Origin: Olleya marilimosa CAM030
Lineage (GTDB): Bacteria; Bacteroidota; Bacteroidia; Flavobacteriales; Flavobacteriaceae
DNA: 64,000 nucleotides
Direction: 5' to 3'
Assembly (NCBI RefSeq): GCF_000518485.1
Contig: NZ_JADR01000001.1
Location: forward strand, 434,001 to 498,000
Under the pieces are notes generated by a model that saw only the letters and a list, made by a program, of their open reading frames with translations, was not told the DNA's origin and ran no database searches. Each line of letters begins with the position of its first letter. Position 1 is the first letter of the stretch. The position numbers were made by a program, and so were the translations under genes. Positions 4,756 through 51,652 of this stretch are shown here, in pieces.

Positions 4756-4773
4756 TTTCCGCGAAAGCGAAAA
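4756..4773 (+). repeat. Dispersed GAAA-hairpin element, copy 1 (lpdA leader)
   Basis: TTTCCGCGAAAGCGAAAA: an imperfect inverted repeat with core GCGAAAGC, ten bases ahead of the lpdA start codon. Consensus over ten copies in the window is TTTCCGCGAAAGCGGAAA. This copy is outside coding sequence and would lie in the lpdA 5' untranslated region. Confidence 0.75.
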
Positions 4774-4783
4774 AACAAAATAT

Positions 4784-6184
4784 ATGAGTCAATACGACGT
4801 AGCAATTATCGGTTCAGGTCCTGGTGGATATGTAGCAGCAATACGTTGCGCACAATTAGGAATGAAAACTGCAATTATTGAAAAATATTCTACTTTAGGT
4901 GGTACATGTTTAAATGTTGGATGTATACCAAGTAAAGCATTACTAGCCTCTTCACATCACTATGAAGAAGCAACTAAGCACTTTGAAGAACACGGAATTG
5001 AAATTCCAGGAGATATTAAAGTGAATTTAGAAAAAATGATTGGTCGTAAGCAAGCAGTTGTGGATCAAACTACTGGTGGAATTGATTTTTTAATGAAGAA
5101 AAACAACATCGACGTTTTTACAGGTGTTGGTAGTTTTAAAGATGCTACTCATATTGTTATTGAAGGAGAAGAAACAACTACAATCGAAGCAAAAAATACC
5201 ATTATTGCAACAGGTAGTAAGCCATCAAGTTTACCATTTATAACTTTGGATAAAGAGCGTATTATTACTTCTACTGAAGCCTTAAAACTAAAAGAAATTC
5301 CTAAGCACATGATTGTGATTGGTGGTGGAGTTATTGGTTTAGAGTTAGGTCAAGTTTACAGACGTTTAGGTGCAGAGGTTACTGTTATAGAGTATATGGA
5401 CAGAATTATTCCTGGAATGGATGGTGCTTTGTCTAAAGAGTTGAATAAAGTCTTTAAAAAAGCTAAATTTAACATGATGTTATCTCATAAAGTACAGTCA
5501 GTAGAGCGTGTTGGAGATGAAGTAATTGTTAAAGCAGAAAATAAAAAAGGAGAAGTTGTTGAGTTTAAAGGAGACTATTGTTTAGTATCTGTTGGACGTA
5601 AACCTTATACAGACGGTTTAAATGCTGAAGCTGCAGGAGTTAAATTAACAGACAGAGGTCAAGTTGAAGTTAATGAGCACTTACAAACTAACGTATCTAA
5701 CATTTACGCTATTGGAGATGTTGTAAAAGGTGCAATGTTAGCACATAAAGCTGAAGAAGAAGGTGTTTTTGTTGCTGAAACTTTAGCAGGTCAAAAACCA
5801 CATATAGATTATAACTTAATTCCTGGTGTGGTTTACACATGGCCAGAAGTTGCTGCTGTTGGAAAAACGGAAGAAGAGTTAAAAGAATCTGGAGTAGATT
5901 ATAAAGTAGGTCAATTTCCGTTTAGAGCATTAGGTCGTGCTAGAGCAGGAGGAGACTTAGATGGATTTGTAAAAATCCTTGCAGATAAAAAGACAGACGA
6001 AGTATTAGGTGTACACATGATTGGTGCACGTTGTGCAGATCTGATTGCAGAAGCAGTAGTTGCTATGGAATTTAGAGCATCTGCCGAAGATATTTCGCGT
6101 ATGTCTCATGCACATCCAACATTTGCAGAAGCGGTAAAAGAAGCTGCTTTAGCTGCAACGGATGATAGAGCATTACATGTTTAA
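4784..6184 (+). CDS. lpdA: Dihydrolipoyl dehydrogenase (E3)
   Basis: A 467-residue FAD-dependent pyridine nucleotide-disulfide oxidoreductase. It has the N-terminal FAD GxGxxG (IIGSGPGGYVAA), the redox-active disulfide GGTCLNVGCIPSKALL, the NAD-binding GGGVIGLELG, the FAD motif IYAIGDV and the C-terminal HAHPTFAE with the catalytic histidine-glutamate pair. It reoxidises lipoyl groups of the pyruvate, 2-oxoglutarate and branched-chain dehydrogenase complexes and of glycine cleavage. The frame is open upstream to 4652, but those 44 residues are unlike the family and MSQYDVAIIGSG is the normal start. It stands alone here without E1/E2 genes. Two copies of the dispersed hairpin element bracket it. 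Confidence 0.95.
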   Translation: MSQYDVAIIGSGPGGYVAAIRCAQLGMKTAIIEKYSTLGGTCLNVGCIPSKALLASSHHYEEATKHFEEHGIEIPGDIKVNLEKMIGRKQAVVDQTTGGIDFLMKKNNIDVFTGVGSFKDATHIVIEGEETTTIEAKNTIIATGSKPSSLPFITLDKERIITSTEALKLKEIPKHMIVIGGGVIGLELGQVYRRLGAEVTVIEYMDRIIPGMDGALSKELNKVFKKAKFNMMLSHKVQSVERVGDEVIVKAENKKGEVVEFKGDYCLVSVGRKPYTDGLNAEAAGVKLTDRGQVEVNEHLQTNVSNIYAIGDVVKGAMLAHKAEEEGVFVAETLAGQKPHIDYNLIPGVVYTWPEVAAVGKTEEELKESGVDYKVGQFPFRALGRARAGGDLDGFVKILADKKTDEVLGVHMIGARCADLIAEAVVAMEFRASAEDISRMSHAHPTFAEAVKEAALAATDDRALHV

Positions 6185-6197
6185 AAGTTAAATAAAT

Positions 6198-6216
6198 ATT
6201 CCGTTTTCGCGGAAAT
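6198..6216 (-). repeat. Dispersed GAAA-hairpin element, copy 2 (after lpdA)
   Basis: ATTCCGTTTTCGCGGAAAT, the reverse-oriented counterpart of the copy before lpdA, starting 14 bp after the lpdA stop. The loop is GAAA read on the minus strand; one stem pair is mismatched. Confidence 0.7.
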
Positions 6217-6220
6217 AAAA

Positions 6221-6256
6221 AAAAAGCGAGCCAATTTGGTTCGCTTTTTTTTTTTT
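6221..6256 (+). terminator. Rho-independent terminator of lpdA
   Basis: An 8 bp stem (6225-6232 with 6238-6245, one G-U pair) with a 5-nt loop is followed by an uninterrupted run of T residues. It lies immediately after the second hairpin element. Confidence 0.85.
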
Positions 6257-6337
6257 GATAAAACTGTAACATATAATTATTTGCAATCTCTTTATAAAGT
6301 AATCAATCAAGTGATGCTTAACCAATAACAACTAATC

Positions 6338-6829
6338 ATGAAAATTAGCACAACCAAAAGTCTTTTCTATCTACTAATATTAGTACTAATAAGTTCCTGT
6401 AAAATTAAAACCGTTATAAAAGTAGACAACGTAAAGCCTCAAGAGATTGTAAATAAAACGTTGTATAATACAATTTTAGAGCAAGATCGTATTTATTTTG
6501 AAGCTTATAATACTTGTGATTTAATCTTACAAAATAAAATGATTCCTGAAGATTTAGAATTTTATCATGATAAAGGAGGATTAATGACTTCTAAATCAGA
6601 TTATATGGAAGGTTTAAAAAATAATATTTGCGGTAAAGTAACTAGGCAATTAGTAGCTGGTAGTGTTGAGGTGTTTCCAATTAATAATTTTGGAGCAGTG
6701 CAAATAGGTATGCATACATTTTATAATAATCAAGAGCCTAATGCCATATCCAAACCTAGTAAGTTTATTGTAATATGGAAAAAAGAAGCAAATATATGGC
6801 AAATGAGTCGTGTGGTGAGTTTACATTAA
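6338..6829 (+). CDS. Putative lipoprotein, NTF2-like
   Basis: 163 residues beginning with a lipoprotein signal peptide ending in the lipobox ISSC (Cys21), so it should be lipid-anchored in an envelope membrane. The mature part (about 45-160) alternates helix and strand in the order of small cone-shaped NTF2/SnoaL/DUF4440-like domains and ends with the WQMSRVVSLH strand typical of that fold. The acidic and aromatic residues around YFEAYNTCDLILQ and EFYHDKGG lie where such domains form their pocket. No catalytic function can be assigned. It stands alone between two terminators. Confidence 0.65.
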   Translation: MKISTTKSLFYLLILVLISSCKIKTVIKVDNVKPQEIVNKTLYNTILEQDRIYFEAYNTCDLILQNKMIPEDLEFYHDKGGLMTSKSDYMEGLKNNICGKVTRQLVAGSVEVFPINNFGAVQIGMHTFYNNQEPNAISKPSKFIVIWKKEANIWQMSRVVSLH

Positions 6830-6850
6830 TATTAGGAAACTTATATAAAT

Positions 6851-6881
6851 AAAAAAAGCGAGCTATATAGCTCGCTTTTTA
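6851..6881. terminator. Bidirectional terminator between convergent genes
   Basis: GCGAGC (6858-6863) pairs with GCTCGC (6870-6875) and is flanked by an A-run on the left and a T-run on the right. It can therefore stop transcription from the lipoprotein gene and from the oppositely oriented helicase gene. Confidence 0.85.
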
Positions 6882-8231: not shown

Positions 8232-8250
8232 AACGTATTATTTTAGCCTA

Positions 8251-8258
8251 CAAAACTA
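8251..8258 (-). promoter_or_regulatory. Candidate -7 box of the helicase gene
   Basis: On the minus strand this reads TAGTTTTG (TAnnTTTG), about 20 bp before the helicase start codon. The -33 region is not convincing. Confidence 0.4.
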
Positions 8259-8273
8259 CTACTTATATTTTGT

Positions 8274-9164: not shown

Positions 9165-9242
9165 CTGTTTTATATTTAATCTCATGACCAAAATACTCGT
9201 TTTTTTAACATTTCTGTTTAACTTTACGCAACATTTTACTAC

Positions 9243-10984: not shown

Positions 10985-11001
10985 TTTATGCCTTTTTACT
11001 T

Positions 11002-12339
11002 ATGCCTTATAACTTAATAGAACACTTCCAAAATCACATAAACAATACACTTCCTTTTCTTAAAAACAGTAAACTATTGCTTGCTATTTCAGGAGGTTTG
11101 GACAGTGTTATTTTAACGTATTTATGTAAACAATCAAGTTTAAATATTACTTTGGCACATTGTAATTTTAATTTAAGAGGAATAGAAAGCGATGGAGACC
11201 AAAAATTTGTTCTAGATTTAGCAGACAGTTTAGATTTAGAGATTTTTACCGAAAGTTTTAATACTATGGCTTACGCCGAAAGTAATAAAGAATCCATCCA
11301 AATGGCTGCAAGAACGTTGCGTTATGATTGGTTTCAGGAATTAGCAACACAGTTGGGTTTTGACTATATTTTAACTGCACATCATGCAGATGATAATTTA
11401 GAAACTTTTTTGATTAACCTGACTCGAGGAACAGGTTTAGAGGGTTTAAAAGGGATTCCGGAAGTAAATGATAATATTGTAAGACCATTGTTGCCATTCT
11501 CTAGAGAAATAATTGAAGAATTTGCGGTGTCCAATCAAATACTTTGGAGAGAAGATAGTAGTAATGCGTCTACAAAATACTTGCGTAATAAGTTAAGACA
11601 TGATGTTATTCCGGTTTTAAAATCTTTAAATCGCAATGTTTTAACCAATTTTAAAAACACCTTAAATAATCTAAATGATACAGCAGATATCGTTGAAGAA
11701 AGTGTGCAAGCGGTTTTAAAACGCGCAATAATTGATATTGATAATACTCAAATAAGTTATAAAATATCAGAGTTTATTAAAGTTAATAATCCTAAAGCAT
11801 ATTTATATGAAATTTTTAAAGACTACGGATTTACACAATGGACAGATATTGTTAATTTGTTGACTGCACAAAGTGGAAAACAAGTATTTTCTGCAACACA
11901 TCAACTACTTAAAAATAGAGATACTTTAATTTTAAGTGAATTAAAAACGGAGGATAGTCAGTATGATAATGAAACCTCAGTTATAATCAATAATTTTGAA
12001 GACGAGGTAGCTGTGTCATTAGGGATTTTATCATTTAAAACGGTAGAAATTCTTGAAAAATCTGACAGCACAACAGTATTTATTGATAAAGAAAAGTTAA
12101 AATTACCATTAACTGTTAGACATTGGAAAGAAGGAGACTATTTTTACCCTCTAGGCATGCAAGGTAAAAAGAAACTTAGCAAATATTTTAAAGATCAAAA
12201 GTTGTCTTTGTTAGACAAGAAAAAGGTGTTATTATTGTGTAGTCAAGATAAAATTGTTTGGGTTATTAATCATCGTGCAGATGATAGATTTAAAGTAACC
12301 AATCAAACCAAATCAATACTAAAAATTAAATTATCATAA
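11002..12339 (+). CDS. tilS: tRNA(Ile)-lysidine synthase
   Basis: 445 residues. The N-terminal ATP-pyrophosphatase domain carries the PP-loop SGGLDS (residues 30-35) and the family segments [36 protein letters not shown] and [11 protein letters not shown]. The C-terminal TilS_C domain is seen at [20 protein letters not shown]. The enzyme attaches lysine to the wobble cytidine of tRNA-Ile(CAU), changing its decoding from AUG to AUA. Its stop codon overlaps the next start by one base (TAATG), so dsbD is translationally coupled to it. Confidence 0.95.
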
Positions 12340-14796: not shown

Positions 14797-16419
14797 ATGA
14801 AAACAATCCAAGGACAAATAGTAGACATACAAAACCAACGCATTTTTAGTGGCGAAATCACTATTAACTCAGGTAAAATACAATCTATTACTGAAAAAGA
14901 ACACGATGTAAAACATTACATATTACCAGGTTTTGTAGACGCACACATCCATATTGAAAGCTCGATGTTAGTCCCATCAGAGTTTGCTAAAATAGCAGTT
15001 AAACATGGGACTATTGCTACGGTTAGTGATCCGCATGAAATAGCAAATGTTTTAGGCGTAAAAGGAGTGGAGTTTATGATTGAAAACGGTAAGAAAACAC
15101 CGTTTAAATTCAATTTTGGAGCACCAAGTTGTGTGCCAGCAACTACTTTTGAATCGGCTGGAGCAGTTATAGATTCTGATGACATTAAAACGCTTATGGC
15201 TAACCCAGATATTAAGTATCTAGCCGAAATGATGAATTATCCTGGTGTGTTGTTTGATGATGAAGAAGTACTTAAAAAAATAGCGTGGGCAAAACACTAT
15301 AACAAACCCGTAGATGGTCACGCACCTGGTTTAAGAGGTGATGATGTTACTAAATATATTAAAGCAGGAATTAGTACAGATCACGAATGTTTTACTTATG
15401 ATGAAGCATTAGAAAAGCTTCAAAAGGGAATGAAAATCTTGATTAGAGAAGGTAGTGCTGCCAAAAACTTTGAAGCTTTAATAGATTTATTACCTGAGCA
15501 TTATCAAAACATGATGTTTTGTAGTGATGACAAGCATCCAGATGATTTATTATTAAATCATATAAACGCCCTTTGCGCTAGAGCAGTAGCAAAAGATATT
15601 GATGTGTTTAAAGTGTTGCAAGCAGCTTGTGTCAATCCTGTAAAACATTACAATTTAGATGTTGGATTATTACAAAAAGATGATGTCGCAGATTTTATTA
15701 TTGTTGAAGATTTAAAAGATTTTAAAACATTACAAACGTATATAAATGGTGAGTTAGTGTTTGATAACGGAACGTCTTTAGTAAAACACGTAGATTTTGA
15801 AAATCTTAATAATTTTGATACTGAAATTAAAACGATTGAAGATTTTAAAGTCGAAAGTACAGCCAAACAAATACGTGTTATTGAAGCTTTAGAAGGTCAA
15901 TTGGTTACTAACCAGTTAACTGAAGAGGCAACCATCCTAAACGGAAACTTGGTATCTAATACAGAAACGGATGTTTTAAAAATGACAGTAGTTAACCGTT
16001 ATAAAAATGATGAGCCAGCGTTAGCATTTATTAAAAAATTTGGTTTAAAAGAAGGTGCAATTGCAAGTTCTGTTGGACATGATTCTCATAATATTATTGC
16101 AGTTGGTGTAAGTGATGAAGCTATTTGTAAAGCAGTAAATTTAATAATTGAAAACAAAGGTGGTATTTGTGCAGTTTCAAATACAGATCAAAAAATAGTA
16201 TCGCTTCCTGTTGCCGGAATTATGAGTGATAAAAATGCCGAAACTATTGGTCACGCTTACGCGGAATTAGACGCGTTTGCAAAACAATTGGGTACAACAT
16301 TAAATGCACCTTACATGACCTTGTCGTTTATGGCATTATTAGTAATTCCTTCACTAAAATTAAGTGATAAAGGCTTGTTTGATGGCGGAAAATTTGAGTT
16401 TACTAGTTTAGAAGTTTAG
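14797..16419 (+). CDS. ade: Adenine deaminase
   Basis: 540 residues of the amidohydrolase superfamily. The metal-binding segment [14 protein letters not shown], the [11 protein letters not shown] segment, [29 protein letters not shown] and the C-terminal [14 protein letters not shown] are all typical of Ade. It hydrolyses adenine to hypoxanthine and ammonia in purine salvage. Length matches the family (about 540-590). It follows the dsbD terminator and is separated by only 11 bp from the hydrolase gene after it, so these two may be cotranscribed although their functions are not obviously linked. Confidence 0.93.
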
Positions 16420-25936: not shown

Positions 25937-27307
25937 TTATAGCCATTTAAGAGCCTTTTTAACAAAGTTTAATTTTCCATTATAAGGTGCATAGCGTACA
26001 GGTATGTCCAACCAATTTGCTTTTTTTACAACCCCTTTTTTATGGCTAAAGGTGTCAAAAGTATACTGTCCATGATAAGCACCAAGTCCACTATTACCAA
26101 TACCTCCAAAAGGTAATCTATGGTTTGCAAAGTGTACAATGGTATCATTTATACAACCACCACCAAACGAGAATTTTTGTATTAATTGTTTCGCTTTCGC
26201 GGAATTTGTGCTAAATACATATAAGCTTAAAGGTTTATTATACGATAAAATAATAGTCTCTAATTCCGAATCTTTTTTGTACGAAATCACAGGAAGTATA
26301 GGTCCAAAAATTTCATTTTTCATGACTTCGCTGTCAAGTAGAGGCTCATCAATAACAGTAGGAGCAATGTACAAATTAGAAGCATCAGTCTGTCCACCAA
26401 TAATGCAGTTTTGATTAACTAACATTTTTGATAAACGCTCAAAGTTTTTAAGGTTTATAATACGAGCATAATCTTTAGATTGTTTTGGAGTAGTGGAGTA
26501 TGCTGATTGTATTTCATGCTGCATAGCTTTATAAAAAGCTGCTTTGTTACTATCATGTATTAAAACATAATCTGGTGCTATACACGTTTGGCCTGCGTTT
26601 ACAAATTTACCCCAAACTATGCGTTTTGCAGCTAATTTTATATTTGCTGTATCATCTATAATACACGGATTTTTCCCTCCTAACTCCAAGGTTACAGGAG
26701 TTAAGTTTGGAGCAGCAGCTTTAGCAACTATTTTACCAACTGCAACACTACCTGTAAAGAAAATATAATCCCAATGTTGTTCCAGTAATTTAGTTGAGGT
26801 TTCTACACCACCTTGTACGACCGTAACATGCTCTGGTTTAAAAACAGTTTTAATAATATCGCTAATTAATGCAGAGGTGTGTGGTGTTAACTCACTAGGT
26901 TTTAAAATGGCTGTATTTCCTGCTGCAATTGCACCAACAAGAGGTGCTAAAGCTAATTGGTAGGGATAATTCCAAGGTGCGATTATCAAAACACTTCCAT
27001 AAGGTTCTGCATACAAATAATCAGAAGACGGAAAGTTTAATAATACAGGAAATACGCGCTTTGGTTTTGCCCATTTATTTAATTTTTTTATAGTAAGTTT
27101 TAAATCCTGAATAACAATAGCGGTTTCAGTTAAAACACTTTCAAATTCTGGTTTTTTAAAATCGTTATATAAGGCATCTATAATATCTTGCTCTCTAGAT
27201 TCTAATTGATTTAATAGTGATTTTAAAAGTGTTTTTCTATAAGAAACACTTAATGTTTTACCTGTTTTAAAATACGTCTTTTGATTGTTTAATAATTCCG
27301 GAATCAT
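25937..27307 (-). CDS. Aldehyde dehydrogenase, class 3 type
   Basis: 456 residues with FTGSVAVGK (cofactor loop, about 194), the general base Glu208 in LELGGKNP and catalytic Cys242 in NAGQTCIAP. The short length and the KPSELTPHTS and HLPFGG-like RLPFGGIGNSGLGAYHG segments place it in the class 3 / fatty aldehyde group. It oxidises medium- or long-chain aldehydes to acids using NAD(P)+. The C-terminal KKALKWL tail is amphipathic and may touch membrane. The coding sequence contains one in-frame copy of the dispersed hairpin element (NSAKAK segment). It faces the histidine kinase gene convergently across 10 bp. Confidence 0.9.
   Translation of the reverse strand: MIPELLNNQKTYFKTGKTLSVSYRKTLLKSLLNQLESREQDIIDALYNDFKKPEFESVLTETAIVIQDLKLTIKKLNKWAKPKRVFPVLLNFPSSDYLYAEPYGSVLIIAPWNYPYQLALAPLVGAIAAGNTAILKPSELTPHTSALISDIIKTVFKPEHVTVVQGGVETSTKLLEQHWDYIFFTGSVAVGKIVAKAAAPNLTPVTLELGGKNPCIIDDTANIKLAAKRIVWGKFVNAGQTCIAPDYVLIHDSNKAAFYKAMQHEIQSAYSTTPKQSKDYARIINLKNFERLSKMLVNQNCIIGGQTDASNLYIAPTVIDEPLLDSEVMKNEIFGPILPVISYKKDSELETIILSYNKPLSLYVFSTNSAKAKQLIQKFSFGGGCINDTIVHFANHRLPFGGIGNSGLGAYHGQYTFDTFSHKKGVVKKANWLDIPVRYAPYNGKLNFVKKALKWL
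26189..26207 (-). repeat. Dispersed GAAA-hairpin element, copy 3 (in the aldehyde dehydrogenase gene)
   Basis: On the minus strand TTCCGCGAAAGCGAAA, core GCGAAAGC. It is read in frame as Asn-Ser-Ala-Lys-Ala-Lys without disturbing the gene. Confidence 0.75.
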
Positions 27308-27376
27308 CGTTGTGTTTTAAAATTAAAGATAAACTATTTTATTGGTTTGCTGCTCATGCGTTAGTGGTAGTAATGG

Positions 27377-27423
27377 CATCCTTTTTTTGCTGCCATATAT
27401 GGCAAAAAAAGATATAATGGATG
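27377..27423. repeat. Inverted repeat between the RluA-type and aldehyde dehydrogenase genes
   Basis: TGCCATATATGGCA (27391-27404) is a perfect 14 bp palindrome flanked by a T-run on the left and an A-run on the right, with outer arms CATCC and GGATG. Neither strand has a T-run after the stem, so it is not an ordinary terminator. It could be an operator for the aldehyde dehydrogenase gene 70 bp downstream. Confidence 0.5.
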
Positions 27424-27451
27424 ACACGACCCTTGTGGTAACGCCCAATAC

Positions 27452-29583: not shown

Positions 29584-31005
29584 TTAACAATCAGCCATAT
29601 TAACGCGTACAGCCAATCCACCTTCGCTAGTTTCTTTATATTTAGTGTTCATATCTTTGGCAGTTTCCCACATGGTGTCAACCACTTTATCTAAAGGGAC
29701 TTTTACGTTTTTAGGATCGGTATCTAAGGCTAATTCGGCTGCATTAATGGCTTTAATTGCTCCCATACTATTACGTTCTATACAAGGGATTTGTACTAAT
29801 CCTCCAATAGGGTCGCAGGTTAGCCCAAGATGATGTTCCATTGCAATCTCTGCTGCAATCATGACCTGTTCTGGACTACCACCAAGCAATTCGCATAAGG
29901 CTGCTGCAGCCATAGCAGAAGATACACCAATTTCGGCTTGACATCCACCCATTGCAGCACTAATGGTGGCTCCTTTTTTAAAGATGCTACCAATCTCGCT
30001 AGCTACTAACAAGAATTTTTTAATGTCTTCAAAATCTGCATCATGGTTTTCTATAACCATATAATACATAAGTACTGCTGGTATAACACCTGCACTTCCA
30101 TTAGTAGGTGCAGTAACCACACGACCAAGTGAAGCATTTACTTCATTTACAGCCAAAGCAAAACAGCTTACCCATTTTAATATTTGTCTAAATTTAACTT
30201 CACTGTTTCTAATGCTTTCTAACCATTCTTGAGGTGTAGTATAAGGCATTTCAATGTTTAAACGCTTGTGTGTGTCAAAAGCACGACGTCTTACATTTAA
30301 TCCTCCAGGTAAGTTACCTTCAGTATGACAACCAATAAACATACAGTCAAGCATGGTATCCCAAATACGATGTAACTCGAAGTCAATCTCTTCATCGGTT
30401 CTAAGAGAGCGTTCGTTTTCTAAAACTATTTCAGAAATACTTTTATTTTCGTTTGTACAAAACGCTAACAACTCGGTTGCTTTGTCAACAGGATACGGAA
30501 ATTCTTTTTTTAATTCTTTATTTTCGGCATCGACCGTACGTTCTTCTTTTATAACAAAACCACCACCAATAGAGTAGAAGGTGGATGTGTGGATTTCGGT
30601 TTCCGCAAAAGCGGTAAACTTAATGCCATTAGCGTGAAACGGTAAAAAAGCTCTATTAAAAATAATGTCTGATTTGGGAGTAAACGGAATAATACGCTCG
30701 TTATTTAAAACTAATTTTGAGGTATTATTAATGGATGCAATGATGATGTCAATAGTATCCGTTGGTATACGTTCTGGATCTGCACCACTTAAACCTAACA
30801 TAACTGCTAAATCTGTAGCATGACCTTTACCAGTTAAAGATAAAGAACCGTATAGGTCGATGGTTACCTTTTGTAGACTGTCAAAAAGGTTAGCTTCTTT
30901 TAGTTCATAAATCCAACGTTCTGCAGCACGCCAAGGTCCTAAAGTATGAGAACTAGAAGGTCCTACACCAATCTTTAGCATGTCAAAAACCGAAATACAC
31001 TCCAT
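29584..31005 (-). CDS. sdaA: L-serine ammonia-lyase (iron-sulfur type, single chain)
   Basis: 473 residues from [21 protein letters not shown]. An upstream extension of 23 codons is open but unlike the family. The N-terminal beta domain ([14 protein letters not shown]) and the C-terminal alpha domain with the three [4Fe-4S] cysteines ([29 protein letters not shown]) are fused in one chain, as in E. coli SdaA. It deaminates L-serine to pyruvate and ammonia. One copy of the dispersed hairpin element lies in frame near residue 133 (TAFAET). Confidence 0.95.
30600..30618 (+). repeat. Dispersed GAAA-hairpin element, copy 4 (in sdaA)
   Basis: TTTCCGCAAAAGCGGTAAA, the only copy with an AAAA loop; stem TTTCCGC/GCGG-AAA. 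It is read from the minus strand in sdaA as Thr-Ala-Phe-Ala-Glu-Thr. Confidence 0.65.
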
Positions 31006-37174: not shown

Positions 37175-38290
37175 ATGACGTCTTCAGATTTTTTTGAACA
37201 GCTTACTCAACAGTTCACAAATCAGCTTCCTTTTGTAGCGTATAAAAAGCCCAATCAATTAGCGGTAAAAGCAATGCTTCAGGATAGCAATCAGCTTCAT
37301 TTTACGACAAATTTTGAGGATAGCGGTTTTGTGTTTTCACCTTTTAAAAATGAAGATAATACGGTATTATTTCCTTTAGATAAAAGCAAAGTAATAGATT
37401 GTTTGTTTGATAGTAAACCTGATCAAGCTAAAAGCCAATTAAGTAGCACGATAAATGTTTCAGCGAAAGCGAAACATATGCAAATAGTAGAGAAAGCTAT
37501 TTCCAAAATTGAAGATGGTAGTTTTAAAAAAGTAGTGATATCTCGAGTTGAAACCGAAACTTTTCCTGAAGACAATACGCTTTTACTATTTAAAAAACTG
37601 TTAGCGACCTATAAAACAGCACTAGTGTATTGTTGGTATCACCCAAAAGTAGGGCTGTGGCTAGGAGCAACGCCTGAAACATTATTAAAAGTAGAAGGCA
37701 ACCGCTTTTTAACCATGTCTCTTGCAGGTACACAACAATATAAAAACACAATTGATGTCCAGTGGCAGTCCAAGGAACAAGAAGAACAGCAATTAGTTAC
37801 GGATTTTATAGTAGGTAGTTTAGAGTCATCAGTAAGTAGTATTAATTTGGGCACTACAGAGACTATTAAAGCAGGGAATTTATTGCATTTGCAAACTAAG
37901 ATTTCTGGACTATTAAAGCCTGAAAATGGATTACAATCCGTTATTGCTAAATTACATCCAACACCTGCAGTTTGCGGTTTACCTAAAGAAAACGCTAAAC
38001 AGTTTATATTAAAAAACGAAGGCTATAATCGTGAATATTATACCGGTTTTTTAGGCGAAATAAATATTAAACAAGCCAAAACAAGAAATACCAATCGCAG
38101 AAATGTAGAGAATAACGCTTACGGATCCGTAAAAACAATATCGCATTTGTTTGTTAATTTAAGATGTCTGCAAATTAAGCACAACAAAGCATTAATCTAT
38201 GTTGGAGGCGGAATTACAAAAGATTCTATACATGAAAACGAATGGGAAGAAACCGTTGCAAAATCTAAGACTGTTAAAAACCTCTTATAA
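37175..38290 (+). CDS. menF: Isochorismate synthase
   Basis: 371 residues of the chorismate-utilising family. Conserved blocks are KVVISRVE, WLGATPETLLKVEGNRFLTM, SLAGTQQY, the ECHHIQTKISG-like LHLQTKISG, LHPTPAVCGLPK and REYYTGFLGE. It isomerises chorismate to isochorismate as the first committed menaquinone step. It could in principle feed a siderophore, but the neighbours make menaquinone the clear choice. An in-frame copy of the hairpin element encodes VSAKAKH near residue 95. Confidence 0.92.
   Translation: MTSSDFFEQLTQQFTNQLPFVAYKKPNQLAVKAMLQDSNQLHFTTNFEDSGFVFSPFKNEDNTVLFPLDKSKVIDCLFDSKPDQAKSQLSSTINVSAKAKHMQIVEKAISKIEDGSFKKVVISRVETETFPEDNTLLLFKKLLATYKTALVYCWYHPKVGLWLGATPETLLKVEGNRFLTMSLAGTQQYKNTIDVQWQSKEQEEQQLVTDFIVGSLESSVSSINLGTTETIKAGNLLHLQTKISGLLKPENGLQSVIAKLHPTPAVCGLPKENAKQFILKNEGYNREYYTGFLGEINIKQAKTRNTNRRNVENNAYGSVKTISHLFVNLRCLQIKHNKALIYVGGGITKDSIHENEWEETVAKSKTVKNLL
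37458..37475 (+). repeat. Dispersed GAAA-hairpin element, copy 5 (in menF)
   Basis: TTTCAGCGAAAGCGAAAC, core GCGAAAGC, read in frame as Ser-Ala-Lys-Ala-Lys. Confidence 0.75.
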
Positions 38291-38332: not shown

Positions 38333-40084
38333 ATGAAACACCCAAAAATACCTTTAGCGCAAACGGTAATTCAGCTTTGTAAAGCCAAGAATATCCAACA
38401 CATTGTACTGTCTCCAGGAAGCAGAAATGCGCCATTAACCATTGGATTTACTCACGATCCTTTTTTTAAATGTTATAGTATTGTGGACGAGCGTTGCGCA
38501 GCTTTTTTCGCATTAGGTATCGCACAACAAATAAAGCATCCCGTAGCAGTGGTTTGTACTTCTGGTAGTGCGTTGTTAAATTATTATCCAGCAGTGTCAG
38601 AAGCGTATTATAGCCATGTTCCGTTAGTGGTTTTAAGTGCAGATAGACCTAAGTACTTGGTAGGAATAGGAGATGGACAGACTATAAATCAAGAAAACGT
38701 TTTTAAAAATCACATACAATATTCGGCTAATTTAAAGCAAGATTTAAATCCTGAAAATCAAAACGCTTTCGCGGAAGACTTGCCAATAATGAAGAGTATT
38801 GAGAATAAAATCGAACGCTTTTTAGGGCTACAACAAGGGATCCAACAATACAACGAAACCGAAATTAATAAAGCCTTTAATATAGCAATAACAACACAAG
38901 GCCCTGTACATGTTAATATTCCGTTTGATGAGCCTTTATATCAAATGGTGGATGCGCTAACGGTAACTCCAGAAGTTGTACCAATACCTAAAAAAAATAT
39001 AGTTAGGGAAAATTATAACGCTTTCGCTGAAATTTGGAATAACTCCAAAAAGAAGTTAGTATTAGTTGGTGTTTTGGCTCCAAATAGCGTAGAACAGCAC
39101 TTTATTGACGTTTTAGCAGAAGATGATAGTGTATTGATATTAACCGAAAGTACGTCTAATTTACACCACGATAATATTTGTCCAAGTATTGATAAATTAA
39201 TTGGTGCGCTTTCTGAGCAAGAGTTACAAGGCTTACAACCAGAAATACTATTAACCTTTGGAGGTTTAATAGTATCAAAAAAAATAAAGAAATTTTTAAG
39301 AACCCATAAGCCAGCACAACATTGGCATGTAGCAGAAAATGGTGCAAATGACACCTTTTTTGTGCTAAACAAGGTGTTTAAGCAATCAATAAACTCGTTT
39401 TTCCAAGCTTTTATACCATTAACTAAAGCTTTAAAAAGTGATTATAACCCATTTTGGAAAAACCAAATGGCTATTAGACGCGAAAAGCATTTGCAATACA
39501 TGGGCTTAATACCATTTTCAGATTTTAAAGTCTTTGATGTGTTACTAAAAAGTATACCAAATTATACGCAATTACAAGTAGGTAATAGTTCTGCTATTAG
39601 ATATACACAGCTTTTTGATATTAATCCAACGTTGGACGTTTTTTGTAATCGAGGCACTAGCGGAATTGATGGAAGTACAAGTACCGCAATTGGAGCATCC
39701 ATAACAAGAGATAATCCAACCGTCTTCATTACTGGAGATTTAAGCTTTTTTTACGATAGTAATGCGTTGTGGAATAATTATATACCTAATAACTTTAGGA
39801 TTATAGTTATTAATAACGAAGGAGGAGGGATTTTTAGAATTTTACCAGGACATAAAAATACAGATAACTTTGATTATTTTTTCGAAACCAAACATCATTT
39901 AACTGCTAAGCAATTATGTGGCATGTATGGTTTTGAATACACTACAGCATCTTCAGAAAATGAACTTTCAGTAGCTTTGTCAGATTTTTATAACACTTCA
40001 AAAACACCTAAATTATTAGAGGTGTTTACACCTTCAAGGACAAATGATGACATTTTATTAGATTATTTTAAGTTTGTAAAATAA
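38333..40084 (+). CDS. menD: SEPHCHC synthase (2-oxoglutarate decarboxylase / isochorismate condensing)
   Basis: 583 residues, a thiamine-diphosphate enzyme. It shows LSPGSRNAPLTIGF, VDERCAAFFALGIAQ (activating Glu), CTSGSALLNYYPAVSEA, SADRP, and in the PP domain CNRGTSGIDGSTSTAIGAS and the ThDP/Mg motif GDLSFFYDSNALWNN followed by NNEGGGIF. It joins 2-oxoglutarate to isochorismate in menaquinone synthesis. Two copies of the dispersed hairpin element lie in frame (NAFAED near residue 146 and NAFAEI near 231), both in stretches between conserved blocks. Confidence 0.96.
   Translation: MKHPKIPLAQTVIQLCKAKNIQHIVLSPGSRNAPLTIGFTHDPFFKCYSIVDERCAAFFALGIAQQIKHPVAVVCTSGSALLNYYPAVSEAYYSHVPLVVLSADRPKYLVGIGDGQTINQENVFKNHIQYSANLKQDLNPENQNAFAEDLPIMKSIENKIERFLGLQQGIQQYNETEINKAFNIAITTQGPVHVNIPFDEPLYQMVDALTVTPEVVPIPKKNIVRENYNAFAEIWNNSKKKLVLVGVLAPNSVEQHFIDVLAEDDSVLILTESTSNLHHDNICPSIDKLIGALSEQELQGLQPEILLTFGGLIVSKKIKKFLRTHKPAQHWHVAENGANDTFFVLNKVFKQSINSFFQAFIPLTKALKSDYNPFWKNQMAIRREKHLQYMGLIPFSDFKVFDVLLKSIPNYTQLQVGNSSAIRYTQLFDINPTLDVFCNRGTSGIDGSTSTAIGASITRDNPTVFITGDLSFFYDSNALWNNYIPNNFRIIVINNEGGGIFRILPGHKNTDNFDYFFETKHHLTAKQLCGMYGFEYTTASSENELSVALSDFYNTSKTPKLLEVFTPSRTNDDILLDYFKFVK
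38762..38777 (-). repeat. Dispersed GAAA-hairpin element, copy 6 (in menD)
   Basis: AACGCTTTCGCGGAAG; on the minus strand TTCCGCGAAAGCG. Read in frame as Asn-Ala-Phe-Ala-Glu. Confidence 0.7.
39017..39033 (-). repeat. Dispersed GAAA-hairpin element, copy 7 (in menD)
   Basis: AACGCTTTCGCTGAAAT; on the minus strand TTTCAGCGAAAGCG. Second copy in the same gene, again read as Asn-Ala-Phe-Ala-Glu. Confidence 0.7.
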
Positions 40085-45387: not shown

Positions 45388-46422
45388 ATGAAAGCATCGT
45401 ATTACAAACATATTTTAGAATTTAAAAGACCTAGCGGAACCTCTAGAGGTATATTAAAAACTAAGGAAACTTGGTTTATTATAATCGAAAAAGATGGTAA
45501 ACGTGGTATTGGAGAATGTGGTATTTTAAGAGGTTTAAGTGCAGATGATAGACCTGATTATGAGGCACAACTTAAGTCCACTTGTTTAGATATTGAAAAA
45601 GGTTTTGATTATTTGTATGCTAAAAATAGTCAGTTTCCTAGTATCCAAATTGGATTAGAAATGGCCTTTAAGAGTCTAGAGAGCACTAATCCTTTTGTTT
45701 TATATCCTTCAGATTTTACAAACGGAAATGCTTCGATTGATATAAATGGTTTGATTTGGATGGGTGATCAAGCCTTCATGAAACAACAAATTGAAGATAA
45801 AATTGCTTCAGGATTTAATTGTATTAAATTAAAAATTGGAGCTATAGATTTTAAAACGGAATTGGATATTTTAAAGGGAATCAGGCAAAATTTCAGCGAA
45901 AGCGATATAGAACTTCGTGTTGATGCCAATGGTGCTTTTAGTACTACTGAAGCTTTAGAGAAACTTAAGCGTTTATCGGACTTTAAATTACACTCCATTG
46001 AACAACCCATTAAGGCTGGTCAACTTGAGGATATGGCTAAATTGTGTGAAGTTACACCTTTAGCTATTGCTTTAGATGAGGAGCTTATTGGTGTGTTTGA
46101 GGATGTAGATAAAAAAAGCTTATTGCAGGTTATAAATCCACAATATATTATTTTAAAACCTAGTTTTATAGGAGGTTTTAAAGGTAGTAATACTTGGATA
46201 AACCTTGCTGAAAAACAAAACATTGGTTGGTGGATTACTAGTGCTTTAGAGAGTAATGTTGGATTAAATGCAATTGCACAATACACGTATACAAAAAACA
46301 GTAATTTACCTCAAGGTTTAGGTACAGGAAGTCTTTTTACCAATAATATTACTTCGCCTTTAGAAGTTAAAAATGGAACATTACAATATAATATAAACAC
46401 TAATTGGAATTTTAATTTTTAA
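45388..46422 (+). CDS. menC: o-Succinylbenzoate synthase
   Basis: 344 residues of the enolase superfamily, beginning MKASYYKHILEFKRPSGTSR. A GTG 13 codons upstream is open but unnecessary. The catalytic base is in IKLKIGA, the metal ligands are in LRVDANGAF, SIEQPI and ALDEELIG, and the second lysine is in YIILKPSFIGG. It dehydrates SHCHC to o-succinylbenzoate. One copy of the hairpin element lies just before the RVDANG strand, read as NFSESD. It is 3 bp from the CPBP gene that follows, with menE next. Confidence 0.93.
   Translation: MKASYYKHILEFKRPSGTSRGILKTKETWFIIIEKDGKRGIGECGILRGLSADDRPDYEAQLKSTCLDIEKGFDYLYAKNSQFPSIQIGLEMAFKSLESTNPFVLYPSDFTNGNASIDINGLIWMGDQAFMKQQIEDKIASGFNCIKLKIGAIDFKTELDILKGIRQNFSESDIELRVDANGAFSTTEALEKLKRLSDFKLHSIEQPIKAGQLEDMAKLCEVTPLAIALDEELIGVFEDVDKKSLLQVINPQYIILKPSFIGGFKGSNTWINLAEKQNIGWWITSALESNVGLNAIAQYTYTKNSNLPQGLGTGSLFTNNITSPLEVKNGTLQYNINTNWNFNF
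45891..45907 (+). repeat. Dispersed GAAA-hairpin element, copy 8 (in menC)
   Basis: TTTCAGCGAAAGCGATA, core GCGAAAGC, read in a third frame as Phe-Ser-Glu-Ser-Asp. Confidence 0.7.
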
Positions 46423-46425
46423 ACT

Positions 46426-47382: not shown

Positions 47383-47385
47383 ACT

Positions 47386-48444
47386 ATGACACCAAACTTT
47401 GATAAGATACACAATAGATTTAGGCTTAATGGGAAACATTATACTTTTGACGATTTAAAAGAGGTTGCCTATAGTTTTATTAAAGAGGGTTTACCATTTG
47501 AGAAAGAAATTGGTGATTTTTTATCCCACTGGTTAGATAACAGTAACTACATTTTAGCTAAAACATCAGGCTCTACAGGTAAGCCAAAAACCATAAAATT
47601 GCATAAGCAAGCTATGGTTAATTCCGCTATTGCAACAGGTGATTTTTTTAATATTCAACCTGGTAATTCTGCTTTATTGTGTTTACCTGCTACCTATATT
47701 GCAGGTAAAATGATGTTGGTTCGCGCTATGGTTTTAGGTTTAGAAATAGATAGCGTGCAACCCACTACAAGTCCTATTTTTGATCCTGAAAAGCATTATG
47801 ATTTTGTGGCTATGATTCCTGCTCAAGCAGAAAAAACATTACACAGACTCAGCAATATTAAAACTCTAATTATTGGAGGAGCGCCTTTGTCAAACCCATT
47901 ACGGCTAAAGTTAGAAACTTTAAAAACCAATATTTTTGAGACTTATGGTATGACTGAAACTATTACGCATATTGCACTTAAGCAATTAAAAAGTGATGGA
48001 CCACAATACTTTAATATTTTACCAAATATTACAATTTCACAAAATAACAAAGCGTGTTTAGTTATAGACGCACCACTTTTAACCAATAAAAAAATCATAA
48101 CTAATGATGTGGTTAAATTACACTCTAAAACTACTTTTGAGTGGTTAGGACGTTCAGATCATGTTATTAATTCTGGAGGTGTCAAATTGTTTCCGGAACA
48201 GATTGAAGCTAAACTGGAATCAAAAATTAAAACGCGTTATTTTATAGCTTCAGAAGATGATAAAACTTTTGGTAGTGTTGCAATATTAGTGATTGAAGCA
48301 GAAAATACGTCTTTAGATACTCATGTGTTTTCTAGTTTAACACCAATTGAAACACCTAAAAGTGTTTATGCTATTCCAGCTTTCGCTGAAACTAGTTCAG
48401 GAAAAGTCAATAGACATAAAACCCTTAAATTACTTAAAAAGTAG
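47386..48444 (+). CDS. menE: o-Succinylbenzoate-CoA ligase
   Basis: 352 residues of the acyl-adenylate superfamily. The P-loop is AKTSGSTGKPKTIKLHK, the A5 motif FETYGMTETITHIAL, then WLGRSDHVINSGGVKLFPE and the catalytic lysine in SSGKVNRHKTLK. It is much shorter than the E. coli enzyme (about 450) because the N-terminal part is reduced, as is usual in Bacteroidota. It activates succinylbenzoate to its CoA thioester. A copy of the hairpin element overlaps IPAFAETSSG, immediately before the catalytic lysine segment. Confidence 0.9.
   Translation: MTPNFDKIHNRFRLNGKHYTFDDLKEVAYSFIKEGLPFEKEIGDFLSHWLDNSNYILAKTSGSTGKPKTIKLHKQAMVNSAIATGDFFNIQPGNSALLCLPATYIAGKMMLVRAMVLGLEIDSVQPTTSPIFDPEKHYDFVAMIPAQAEKTLHRLSNIKTLIIGGAPLSNPLRLKLETLKTNIFETYGMTETITHIALKQLKSDGPQYFNILPNITISQNNKACLVIDAPLLTNKKIITNDVVKLHSKTTFEWLGRSDHVINSGGVKLFPEQIEAKLESKIKTRYFIASEDDKTFGSVAILVIEAENTSLDTHVFSSLTPIETPKSVYAIPAFAETSSGKVNRHKTLKLLKK
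48374..48392 (-). repeat. Dispersed GAAA-hairpin element, copy 9 (in menE)
   Basis: TTCCAGCTTTCGCTGAAAC; on the minus strand the core is GCGAAAGC with an AGC/GCT inner stem. Read in frame as Pro-Ala-Phe-Ala-Glu-Thr. Confidence 0.65.
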
Positions 48445-48538
48445 TGTTACCTAATTCAAAATAGGGCTTCCCTAAATACTGGTTTTATAATCCTTAGTTT
48501 GGTTATAGGTTTGTTTTAAACTTTAAAACGACCTTATC

Positions 48539-50680
48539 ATGAAAACAGGATTAAATTTAATAATTGCACTATTTATGGTAGTACAATTACATGCACAACA
48601 AAAAACGGTATCTGGTGTTATTACAGATCAAGACGGTATTCCATTACCATCTGCGACAGTATTACAAATGGGAACTGCCAATGGGACAACATCTGATTTT
48701 GATGGTAACTATAGTATTTCTGTTAATGTTAAGGATGTTTTGGAGTTTAGTTATTTAGGTTACAAGTCAAAACAAGTTGTGGTAACAGATGCTAATACCA
48801 TTAATGTTGTTCTGCAAGAAAACGGTAGTTTAGATGAAGTATCAATTACTATGTTAGGGATTTCACGATCACAAGACGAAGTAAAAAAATCTGTGACGAC
48901 CATTCAATCAGAGGAAATTATAAAAACTTCAAACCCAAACGTAGTCAATGGTTTAGCAGGTAAAGTATCTGGTCTAAAAATCAAAACTAATAATAATGGT
49001 GTTAATCAAACCACAAGAATTGTATTAAGGGGTAATAGATCTGTATCAGGTACAAACGAGGCACTTATTGTTATTGATGGTAAAATATCTTCGGCTGAAA
49101 AATTAGTCAATTTAGCACCAAAAAAAATAGCGTCTACTCATGTTGTTAGAGGTGCAGAAGGATCAGCGTTATATGGATCACAAGGTGCCAATGGTGTAAT
49201 TATAATCACGACAGTAGATGGTAATAAAGACAATGCCAAAATTTCAAAACTTGTACAGACAAATAAAGAATTGCAACATAAATTTTTAAACGAAAGTTAT
49301 ACTAAAATACACGAAAATAAATTTAAAATAGCAGCCGCAACACCTTTGTCAACCTTTTCTATAGATGTAGATAAGGCTGGTTATAGCAATGTAAGACGTA
49401 TGATTAACAATGGACAATTAATTCCTGCAAATGCGGTTAAGATTGAAGAAATGGTTAATTATTTTGATTATAATTATCCACAACCAACAGATGAACATCC
49501 ATTTTCTATCAATACAGAAGTTGTAAAAACCCCTTGGCATCAAGATACCAAGTTAGTTAGAATTGGATTACAAGGTAAAATTTATGATAATGAAAACTTA
49601 CCAGCTGCCAATCTTACTTTTTTAATTGATGTTTCAGGATCAATGGGTAATCAAAACAAGTTACCACTTTTAAAAGAGGCTTTTAAATTATTAGTTAATC
49701 AATTAAGACCACAAGATAATGTTGCTATTGTAGTATATGCAGGAGCAGCTGGAGTAGTATTAAAGCCAACATCAGGGAAACATAAAACAAAAATTATTGA
49801 AGCTTTAGATCAGTTAAATGCAGGTGGATCTACAGCAGGTGGTCAAGGTATTGAGCTAGCCTATAAATTAGCTCAAGAAAATTTTAATAAAAAAGGAAAT
49901 AATAGAGTGATATTAGCTACTGATGGCGATTTTAATGTTGGTGCCTCTAGTAATGATGCTATGGAGAAACTGATTGTTAAAAAAAGAGAATCAGGTGTCT
50001 TTTTATCGGTTTTAGGTTTTGGTTATGGAAATTATAAGGATGATAAGTTAGAGATTTTAGCAGATAAAGGAAACGGAAATCATGCGTATATCGATACCAT
50101 GCAAGAAGCAAGACGTATTTTTGAAACCGAATTTGGTGGGACTTTATTTACTATAGCTAAAGATGTAAAAATACAAGTAGAATTTAATCCTAATCATGTA
50201 CAAGCTTATCGTTTAATTGGATATGAAAACAGGTTGTTAGCAGATGAAGATTTTGTTAATGATGCAATTGATGCAGGAGAACTTGGAGCAGGACATATTG
50301 TTACCGCATTATATGAAGTGCTTCCGGTTGGCATTGAAAGTGAGTATGCAAAAGACACTATAGATTTAAAATACACAAAAAATAAAGCTGAAACTAACCA
50401 ATATAATGATGAGTTGTTTACCGTTAAATTTAGATATAAGAAACCTGATGAAGATAAAAGTATTGAAATGATACACGTACAAAAAAATGAAATAACAGAA
50501 GCTACTGAAGATATGAATTTTGCTAGTGCTGTTGCGTTATTTGGAATGCAGTTAAGAGAGTCTCAGTTTTACAATAATACTAATACCCAAGATGTAATTG
50601 CGTTAGCAAATAAAGGTAGAGGTGAAGATAAGTCTGGATACAGAGCAGAATTTGTTAGATTAATAAGCACTTTTAAGTAA
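48539..50680 (+). CDS. SusC-like head fused to a VWA (YfbK-type) domain
   Basis: 713 residues. After a signal peptide (about 1-19) come a carboxypeptidase-regulatory-like domain (VSGVITDQDGIPLPSATVLQ, about 22-100) and a TonB-plug-like domain (GLAGKVSGLKIKTNNNG, LRGNRSVSGTNEALIVIDGK, SALYGSQGANGVIIITT, about 120-230). There is no outer-membrane barrel. Instead there is a VWF-like N-terminal region (STFSIDVDKAGYSNVRRMIN), a VWA domain with the metal site DVSGSMG and a C-terminal DUF3520-like part ending YRAEFVRLI. The exported protein may bind partners at the cell surface or in the periplasm through the metal site. Function is not established. Confidence 0.8.
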   Translation: MKTGLNLIIALFMVVQLHAQQKTVSGVITDQDGIPLPSATVLQMGTANGTTSDFDGNYSISVNVKDVLEFSYLGYKSKQVVVTDANTINVVLQENGSLDEVSITMLGISRSQDEVKKSVTTIQSEEIIKTSNPNVVNGLAGKVSGLKIKTNNNGVNQTTRIVLRGNRSVSGTNEALIVIDGKISSAEKLVNLAPKKIASTHVVRGAEGSALYGSQGANGVIIITTVDGNKDNAKISKLVQTNKELQHKFLNESYTKIHENKFKIAAATPLSTFSIDVDKAGYSNVRRMINNGQLIPANAVKIEEMVNYFDYNYPQPTDEHPFSINTEVVKTPWHQDTKLVRIGLQGKIYDNENLPAANLTFLIDVSGSMGNQNKLPLLKEAFKLLVNQLRPQDNVAIVVYAGAAGVVLKPTSGKHKTKIIEALDQLNAGGSTAGGQGIELAYKLAQENFNKKGNNRVILATDGDFNVGASSNDAMEKLIVKKRESGVFLSVLGFGYGNYKDDKLEILADKGNGNHAYIDTMQEARRIFETEFGGTLFTIAKDVKIQVEFNPNHVQAYRLIGYENRLLADEDFVNDAIDAGELGAGHIVTALYEVLPVGIESEYAKDTIDLKYTKNKAETNQYNDELFTVKFRYKKPDEDKSIEMIHVQKNEITEATEDMNFASAVALFGMQLRESQFYNNTNTQDVIALANKGRGEDKSGYRAEFVRLISTFK

Positions 50681-50712
50681 TCTTGTTTTTGGTTATTTCT
50701 GGATTATTTATA

Positions 50713-50748
50713 ATAAAAAAGGAACACTATTTAGTGTTCCTTTTTTTT
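50713..50748. terminator. Bidirectional terminator
   Basis: GGAACACT (50721-50728) pairs with AGTGTTCC (50733-50740), flanked by A-run and T-run. It serves the VWA gene on the plus strand and the exported-protein genes on the minus strand. Confidence 0.88.
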
Positions 50749-50767
50749 ATGATTACGGTTTTAAAAC

Positions 50768-51652
50768 TTATTCAAACTCATGATAAAAGCTCAGTAATAT
50801 TTGCTTGTTTTTTAATAACTCTTTTGCTTTTTTATGATTGTCTTCAAATGTTTCTAAGTTGGTACCTTTACATATTCCGTAGGAATAATGGTATTTTATA
50901 ATCTCAGTATCAAAATCTGATAATTGATAATCATTATCATGGCTTCCAGAAAAAAAATGCTTGTTGTCTATGTTTCGGTTAAACTCAAAATGCCCTAATG
51001 ATTTTATAAAATATTTTTTTAATTCTCTTAAGCGTAAATTAGGTGTAAAAAAGTCTTCTTTTATAAGTCTAAGAGATAATCTATAAATTTGATTTTTATT
51101 GTTCCAATGCATATAATAGTCGGATTTCTTATAATTACTGATTCTTGATTCGTACTCAAAACCATCATTGTAATAAACCACATAATTAGAGTCTTCGACA
51201 TGTTTAACTTCTTTTATGGATAAAGAATCAACGTGTTGTAAAGTCTTTTCGGCGAAAGCCATAAATTCTTTTTTAACTTTTTTATCTACAGCATTGGAAA
51301 AGAAAATAGCAATGTCGTCTTTCCAATATTTCATGGTAGTTTTTTTGCTAACAGAATCCTTGTAATGATTAAAAGCTATAGTTTTATACACGTCTAAAAA
51401 TGTAGAGTCTTTATACTGGTAAGGTATGCTAGTGCCAGGTTTTCGGACATAATCCTTTACAATAACCATGGTGTCATTATTTACATAAACAAAGTTTAAA
51501 GTGTCTTTTGCAGTTAATGGCATTTTATATTTAGCCTTAAACTGTTTTAAAGACATCCTGTATTGCACGTTTTTTGGTTGGTGTGGTGTTTGTGCTTGTA
51601 CTAATTGCACTAAAGTTAGTGATATGATGGCTATAAGTAGTGATTTAGTCAT
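50768..51652 (-). CDS. Exported protein of unknown function, related to the gene at 51645
   Basis: 294 residues with a signal peptide (about 1-20, cleaved near VQAQ). Segment YWKDDIAIFFSNAVDKKVKK followed by a helix, and a late DFDTEIIKYHYSYGI, match the order in the upstream neighbour (YQWKEPIVVYFDH, then MDIVLLKYHYKNLY). The layout recalls DUF2927-like exported proteins, but no HExxH is present and the assignment is weak. A hairpin-element copy gives MAFAEK. Its start overlaps the stop of the preceding gene by 8 bp, so the two are cotranscribed. Confidence 0.65.
   Translation of the reverse strand: MTKSLLIAIISLTLVQLVQAQTPHQPKNVQYRMSLKQFKAKYKMPLTAKDTLNFVYVNNDTMVIVKDYVRKPGTSIPYQYKDSTFLDVYKTIAFNHYKDSVSKKTTMKYWKDDIAIFFSNAVDKKVKKEFMAFAEKTLQHVDSLSIKEVKHVEDSNYVVYYNDGFEYESRISNYKKSDYYMHWNNKNQIYRLSLRLIKEDFFTPNLRLRELKKYFIKSLGHFEFNRNIDNKHFFSGSHDNDYQLSDFDTEIIKYHYSYGICKGTNLETFEDNHKKAKELLKNKQILLSFYHEFE
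51246..51265 (+). repeat. Dispersed GAAA-hairpin element, copy 10
   Basis: TTTTCGGCGAAAGCCATAAA, with a GGC/GCC inner stem and GAAA loop. It is the most divergent copy. Read on the minus strand as Ala-Phe-Ala-Glu. Confidence 0.6.

Follow-up and report, generated by a model that had tools for sequence, protein, structure and literature searches.

The 64-kb window of Olleya marilimosa CAM030 analysed here (the whole stretch of 64,000 nucleotides, C1:434001-498000 of a 27-contig, 3.34-Mb assembly; 31.5 percent G+C) carries, within and between genes, dispersed copies of a short repeat built on the 8-base core GCGAAAGC, which is very probably a hairpin signal acting at the level of DNA. An initial annotation had listed ten copies, nearly all keeping the core. 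At all ten places the sequence is present to within a few bases and the core is exact at eight of them, whereas those at 6198 and 30600 are one-base core variants and at least two copies with a GTAA loop (11268 and 16254, minus strand) had been missed. Four of the carrier genes, for a chorismate-binding, a thiamine-pyrophosphate, an enolase-like and an AMP-binding enzyme, look like members of the menaquinone pathway; the Men names used below go beyond the Pfam assignments and are putative. The copies of the window are the following:

4756..4769, plus strand: TTTCCGCGAAAGCG, probably intergenic; the likely ATG of a Pyr_redox-family gene follows after 14 nt, at 4784.
6202..6215, minus strand: TTTCCGCGAAAACG, degenerate and intergenic; the core is broken here and intact in the relatives G001 and G003.
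11268..11281, minus strand: TTTCGGCGTAAGCC, GTAA loop, antisense within an open reading frame (ORF); G004 has TTTCAGCGTAAGCT, a paired change.
16254..16267, minus strand: ATTCCGCGTAAGCG, a GTAA-loop copy.
26192..26205, minus strand: ATTCCGCGAAAGCG, within an aldehyde dehydrogenase-family gene.
30600..30613, plus strand: TTTCCGCAAAAGCG, degenerate, antisense in a serine dehydratase-family gene.
37458..37471, plus strand: TTTCAGCGAAAGCG, in the chorismate-binding enzyme gene, read as S-A-K-A; A-G, with the outer position unpaired.
38764..38777, minus strand: CTTCCGCGAAAGCG, antisense in the thiamine-pyrophosphate enzyme gene (MenD-like).
39019..39032, minus strand: TTTCAGCGAAAGCG, antisense in the same MenD-like gene; some relatives have C-G for A-G.
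45891..45904, plus strand: TTTCAGCGAAAGCG, in the enolase C-terminal-like gene (MenC-like), read as F-S-E-S.
48378..48391, minus strand: TTTCAGCGAAAGCT, antisense in the AMP-binding enzyme gene; A-T outer pair.
51247..51260, plus strand: TTTCGGCGAAAGCC, G-C pair, antisense in an ORF with no Pfam match at 1e-5.

The structure of the unit was defined on an 864-kb sample of the window's genome (G000). Alignment of 41 copies of TTTC(A or C)GCGAAAGC gave TTTC(C or A)GCGAAAGCG, then two weak positions and an A (34 of 41), with little else common to the copies and only weak base preferences shared by their flanks; from this alignment the right arm is WWA and not GGAAA. The consensus unit is TTTC-NGC-GAAA-GCN' (14 letters) followed by WWA, with a near-invariant TTTC, a stem usually of exactly 3 bp and a loop that is most commonly GAAA and secondly GTAA. 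The longer form first proposed did not hold: its 18-base consensus has no exact copy, although six matches with one to three mismatches were found where none is expected, and in place of its 7-bp stem the 55 copies of the pattern TTTC.GCG[AT]AAGC. in the sample have exactly three contiguous pairs in 45 cases, two in 7, four in 3 and five or more in none. The word CCGCGAAAGCGG occurs just twice across the genome. GNNA loops are stable DNA tetraloops, and the mini-hairpin d(GCGAAAGC), with the same 8-base core, is a DNA hairpin of extraordinary stability; such stability is a physical trait of the oligonucleotide, while here the same core lies inside a dispersed genomic motif.

The abundance of the element is far above chance, as had been claimed. 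The core occurs eight times in the window against a shuffle mean of 0.69, a count reached by none of 100 shuffles. Genome-wide there are 118 cores in 3.34 Mb, or about 2.3 per 64 kb, so that the window is a rich stretch and not a typical one. The reversed core, with 98 occurrences genome-wide, is not a clean control because it overlaps GCGAAAGCG; a cleaner test is provided by the 14-mer TTTCMGCGAAAGCG, found 53 times in this genome (26 plus, 27 minus) against none for its reversed control. Nine further genomes of the genus hold 18-55 copies of TTTCMGCGAAAGCG, with one control match in total, and by the same count any copy was present in five of 30 genomes of other genera, at 1 to 4 copies each. 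Across 299 Flavobacteriaceae genomes at least one copy was found in 91 and at least ten in 17, belonging to 13 genera (reversed control total 21). In a separate count of the 13-mer no genome had more than 63 copies. An extended pattern gave six single-copy matches among IMG/VR viral contigs. Counts were also far higher than predicted from codon and dinucleotide use, the comparison by which the initial annotation was to stand or fall: synonymous-codon shuffles of 715 ORFs (100 shuffles) averaged 0.22 and never exceeded 1 against 27 observed, by which a codon-usage artefact was ruled out. Most stretches of the G000 sample had been picked for a known core, which inflates sample densities and leaves genome-wide counts unaffected; because of this enrichment the true excess over the shuffles is some two- to three-fold lower, and still very large.

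The evidence that the unit is constrained as a hairpin comes from its stem. With TTTC and GCG(A/T)AAGC fixed and the two free outer positions tallied, 116 non-homologous copies (at most 55 percent ungapped identity over the 134-base surroundings, a rough filter) gave the outer pairs C-G 93, A-G 8, A-T 5, G-C 4, T-A 2, C-A 2, A-A 1 and C-C 1, all four Watson-Crick types being present. A Watson-Crick pair is formed in 104 of the 116, whereas 20,000 permutations averaged 84.4 and never exceeded 94; the loci of other genera had been retrieved by a pattern with GAAA as the loop and A or C as the outer stem base, which limits the variety there. The count for this genome alone, independent of those loci, gave 40 Watson-Crick pairs in 45 copies (permutation mean 28.7, maximum 37 in 50,000). 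In the two main gene frames the outer positions fall on third codon bases; each could vary freely there, yet the two match each other. Double changes from one pair to another were seen at four orthologous sites: A-T <-> C-G at 48378, where O. namhaensis (L043) and O. sediminilitoris (L044) carry C-G, and likewise A-T <-> C-G in L138/L173 compared with L147 and in L041 compared with L129; and G-C <-> A-T at 11268. Since the paired changes at 48378 and 11268 affect copies antisense to genes, and a RecQ site common to five genera is antisense as well, the constraint appears to lie on DNA and not on mRNA. The second stem pair varied three times, always to A-T (twice in this genome, once elsewhere), and the third once, to an unpaired C-A. 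Pairing of TTTC with the GAAA loop was considered and rejected, as the single-change variants alter only the first base of TTTC, with no matching change in the loop.

Several variations on the unit were observed. A weak G at position -7 before TTTC is present in 27 of 41 copies in this genome and in 21 of 57 loci of other genera, and GGCT at -7 to -4, found in many Olleya copies, is perhaps a dialect-like extension. Stems of the form NGC/GCN flanked by TTTC and closed by loops other than GAAA or GTAA are Watson-Crick in 35 of 54 cases, compared with 1323 of 3129 for all flanks together (864-kb sample), and the signal may accept further loops such as TTTA. In G232 (genus g224) several intergenic copies (L130, L134, L135, L138) read CATTTCCGCG and continue as GCGGATATCTC, GCGAAAATCTT and similar sequences, nearer to a longer palindrome; at L130 a second repeat-like word, GTCAGTTCGAACGCAGTCAAGAA, comes after the motif. 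Copies at L012, L033, L155 and L165, from three genera, stand immediately 3' of the T-run of a terminator-like hairpin, and at C4:242886-242905 of G000 two GCGAAAGC cores lie in opposite orientation, 12 bases apart.

Motif bases are better conserved than their surroundings within the genus. G001, G003, G005 and G006 share the window's base at 293 of 294 motif positions and at 2240 of 2493 flanking positions (p 9e-12), and all eight relatives together at 558 of 602 and 4344 of 5111 (p 5e-8, a guide only because the rows are related); the counts cover aligned loci, 43 site-genome rows at 10 window sites. The copy at 4756 keeps 14/14 bases in 7/7 aligned genus relatives. That at 16254 keeps 14/14 in five of eight and 13/14 in G004, and is absent in G008 (9/14) and G009 (8/14); the copy at 51247 is kept in G001 and has 10/14 in G002. 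At 30600 the loop is GAAA in 7/8 aligned relatives and GTAA in G003. At most sites the genus relatives either retain the motif or differ plainly from it, and both states mostly align without gaps: it is gained and lost mostly by substitution and not by insertion. The MenD-like protein of the window is 92 percent identical to its Olleya namhaensis counterpart, in line with the placement of the window in this genus.

Conservation of single sites extends beyond the genus. A set of 138 sites from 14 genomes fell into 103 clusters, 23 of them with more than one site (some intergenic ones doubtful). One site, antisense to a RecQ gene, is common to five genera (G000, G068, G108, G232, G266), and one in a MutS-domain gene to five genera as well (G108, G183, G187, G232, G243); orthologues in other genera retain the motif though the surrounding bases change. 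Among low-copy genomes, the sites found in another genome amount to 4/4 in G288, 3/3 in G183, 4/5 in G068, 2/5 in both G213 and G266, 0/4 in G283 and 0/2 in G277.

As regards genomic placement, 17 of the 55 copies lie outside ORFs of at least 100 aa, although such sequence makes up 15.0 percent of the sample (p 0.002), and intergenic copies face both directions. Under a stricter pattern the genic copies of this genome comprise 20 sense and 9 antisense, and 25 of the 29 fall in three frames: S-A-K-A (14), antisense A-F-A-E (7) and the sense frame of F-R-E-S (4). The last count includes the probably intergenic copy at 4756, where the longest ORF begins upstream, at 4652, and would take the copy in. 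Twenty carrying or adjacent genes were scanned (18 from this genome, two from another genus), and they include two RecQ helicases, a MutS-domain protein (other genus), phosphoglycerate kinase and a glutamate synthase-domain protein.

The strands are used evenly (26/27), and in five single-contig genomes no strand split by genome half was detected (p 0.30 to 0.90) in a test that scanned half-genome splits at every site, with ori/ter positions left aside and genome lengths partly rounded. With regard to a macrodomain site of the matS, SlmA or Noc type, which would be confined to ori or ter or kept away from them, these genomes displayed no marked density difference between halves, and somewhat long gaps between copies only in G005 (p 0.05) and G232 (p 0.03). 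The proposal that the element serves as a segregation signal finds no support, the strands being even and no split being seen, and a segregation or replication polarity signal of the KOPS (FtsK-orienting polar sequences), Chi or Ter type was rejected on the same p values. In G068 and G288, all five and all four 14-mer copies, respectively, are on the minus strand of their contigs, three sites being common to both.

That the element is a signal read by a protein at the DNA level, with uptake among the roles first considered for it, is supported by site conservation, by the origin of copies mostly through substitution and by the covariation of the stem. The recognised form would include the mini-hairpin, that is TTTC, the 3-bp stem NGC/GCN', a GNNA-type loop (GAAA, less often GTAA) and WWA. 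A putative reader would act on single-stranded DNA or on a locally melted hairpin, in a process exposing either strand, and the indifference to strand would fit uptake or recombination. Reading would either favor the inheritance of motif-bearing DNA (drive) or be selected by the cell, and the word would be favored wherever the encoded protein permits. The leading candidate process is self-recognition in DNA uptake or recombination, as for the uptake sequences of Neisseria and Haemophilus, at a far lower density and with structure as one component; its lead is a weak one because the density is low, about 1 per 60 kb. A role in uptake or recombination, taken by itself, is possible and rather doubtful, and the full statement, which joins the hairpin signal, single-strand reading and self-recognition in uptake or recombination, is put forward tentatively.

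Several points weigh against this proposal. The density of about 1 per 60 kb compares with hundreds to thousands of uptake sequences per genome (PMC2346458), and a bias toward gene ends, a hallmark of uptake signal sequences (USS), was not significant (p 0.10 to 0.23). In copies with A-G at the outer position (8 of 116) the stem is broken, and some sites keep this A-G well; it is partly explained by the protein frame, as at 45891, where A-G goes with that frame. Folding energies are unremarkable (z -0.66 to -1.36 for four 3-bp forms folded). In G008 and G009 the sites, with 46/56 and 43/56 matching bases, are kept no better than the flanks, with 385 and 382 of 484, and several sites are absent there, so that conservation is not universal. 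Gapped alignments leave insertion and substitution undecided for 37458 against L044 and L045, for 38764 against L049 and L052, and for 6202. No recognising protein was found, and we know of no natural transformation of Olleya. On the side of the proposal, ComEC (PF03772), the sole competence component sought, is encoded in G000 and in 39 of 40 genomes (21/21 motif-bearing, 18/19 motif-poor), and so does not discriminate. Also on that side, natural competence exists in Flavobacteriaceae, and one study describes a member that prefers its own DNA with no established uptake sequence, the authors listing candidate low-complexity words (PMC7965970).

Compared with the DNA uptake sequences (DUS) of Neisseriaceae and the USS of Pasteurellaceae, the element is alike in being a non-palindromic motif of similar length, present on both strands and in genic and intergenic positions, mostly born by substitution, frame-biased in genes, uneven over clades and found also in recombination and repair genes. 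It differs in copy number (53 in 3.34 Mb and at most 63, for the 13-mer, per genome, against hundreds to thousands), in its covarying stem, in lacking a significant gene-end bias and in belonging to a different phylum, and its uptake role is putative. A description of the motif was not found in the open-access literature among the matches listed, most subscription papers being outside that coverage; the literature on the core, again among the matches listed, was unrelated or concerned aptamer and hairpin chemistry, with no genome-wide signal built on it. It is conceivable, if somewhat unlikely, that the element represents an undescribed, structure-dependent genome-identity signal of Bacteroidota, a single-stranded mini-hairpin read in uptake or recombination that would drive its own accumulation through point substitutions, in genes as well as outside them. 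If true, this would be the first uptake-type signal known from the phylum, and no other uptake-type signal is known to have a covarying stem.

A word that keeps its base pair through paired changes at wobble positions, in both gene orientations, points to a machine that would read DNA hairpins chromosome-wide in part of a large bacterial family, by way of a genome-wide signal apparently unrecognised so far. The element makes the open question of own-DNA preference in Flavobacteriaceae testable with short oligonucleotides and, should its role be chromosome maintenance, the sites would still serve to fish out the DNA-binding protein.

Chromosome maintenance is the main rival, and an unlikely though serious one: the element would be a binding site for a protein of chromosome organisation, segregation, nucleoid occlusion or replication restart, selected for the benefit of the cell. 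Some 20-60 copies in rich genomes, the housekeeping genes among the carriers and the conservation of the same sites across genera agree with such a function, as do the mostly shared sites of the low-copy genomes G068, G288 and G183, which the decay of a lost drive would hardly keep. The five single-contig genomes nevertheless lack half-genome clustering and strand split, with long gaps in G005 and G232 only. Moreover, a dimer binding double-stranded DNA does not readily predict a covarying pair of free identity, and the element is patchy in the family (91/299 genomes), with G283 and G277 sharing none of their four and two sites.

It is improbable that the copies are a mobile family of the repetitive extragenic palindromic (REP) type, or its fossil, moved by a Y1 transposase of the REP-associated tyrosine transposase (RAYT) group and resembling CGTC-1 (stem 8, loop 4). 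Like CGTC-1/dRS3 and GTAG REP, the element is a small hairpin with a 4-base loop, dispersed and sometimes genic; it has an unpaired 5' foot, longer palindromes do occur elsewhere (seven contiguous pairs in 2 of 83 copies from other genera), and CGTC repeats are reported in Bacteroidetes, at times within genes (PMC3733652). The same paper gives stems of 8-9 bp for CGTC and 5-13 bp for GTAG repeats, against 3 bp here (8 bp in the compared REP). A CGTC/TGTC tag was present within 8 nt in 0/55 own copies and 3/83 others, and GTAG/GTGG in 0/55 and 1/83. Dimers are hardly to be found, the pairs less than 300 nt apart being one inverted among the 55 own copies and one direct among the 83 others. A Y1 transposase match is absent from G000, G001, G004 and G192 (53, 55, 51 and 40 copies). 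Such matches occur in some motif-rich genomes, G003 and G005 (50 and 42 copies), but there is no association over 50 genomes (14/30 motif-bearing, 12/20 motif-poor). Spread by copying of a mobile mini-hairpin, as the initial annotation had suggested, finds no support in these results: motif-bearing loci and their motif-less counterparts mostly align without insertion, the flanks of the copies share only weak preferences, and mobility is largely refuted for genic copies, which differ mostly by substitution.

HIP1 (GCGATCGC) of cyanobacteria is likewise a short, GC-rich, over-represented word, and it occurs within genes too. The element described here forms a hairpin whose loop is asymmetric and which has a 5' foot, whereas HIP1 is perfectly palindromic and has been linked to orphan methyltransferases (PMC4390886).

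An RNA element with a GNRA tetraloop, acting in transcripts, is quite improbable. Both GAAA and GTAA match GNRA and sense genic copies outnumber antisense ones in this genome (20 vs 9), but the antisense copies at 48378 and 11268 are likewise conserved, with the same paired changes, intergenic copies face both ways, and none of the Rfam families attains its gathering score at motif sites. Finally, it is hardly credible that the motif is a side effect of protein sequence and of codon choice, with common codons spelling out the peptides S-A-K-A, A-F-A-E and F-R-E-S, since the three frames that take in 25/29 genic copies, and the naturalness of Ala-X-Ala-Glu and of the signal-peptide A-K-A-Q, are outweighed by the synonymous shuffles (0.22 vs 27), which refute it, by the 17/55 copies outside ORFs of at least 100 aa and by orthologues of other genera that keep the motif while neighboring bases change.

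Elsewhere in the window, the only Rfam matches above gathering score are two Flavo-1 RNAs, at 27344-27435 (plus strand) and 63126-63199 (minus strand). Other words are also in excess over an order-1 model (both strands, palindromes counted twice), namely TTCCGGAA (12 vs 0.82), TGCAATTGCA (10 vs 0.34) and AGCAGCTTTAGC (5 vs 0.01), and some of them may belong to related NGC-NNNA-GCN hairpins or reflect the coding of Ala-X-Ala-Glu.

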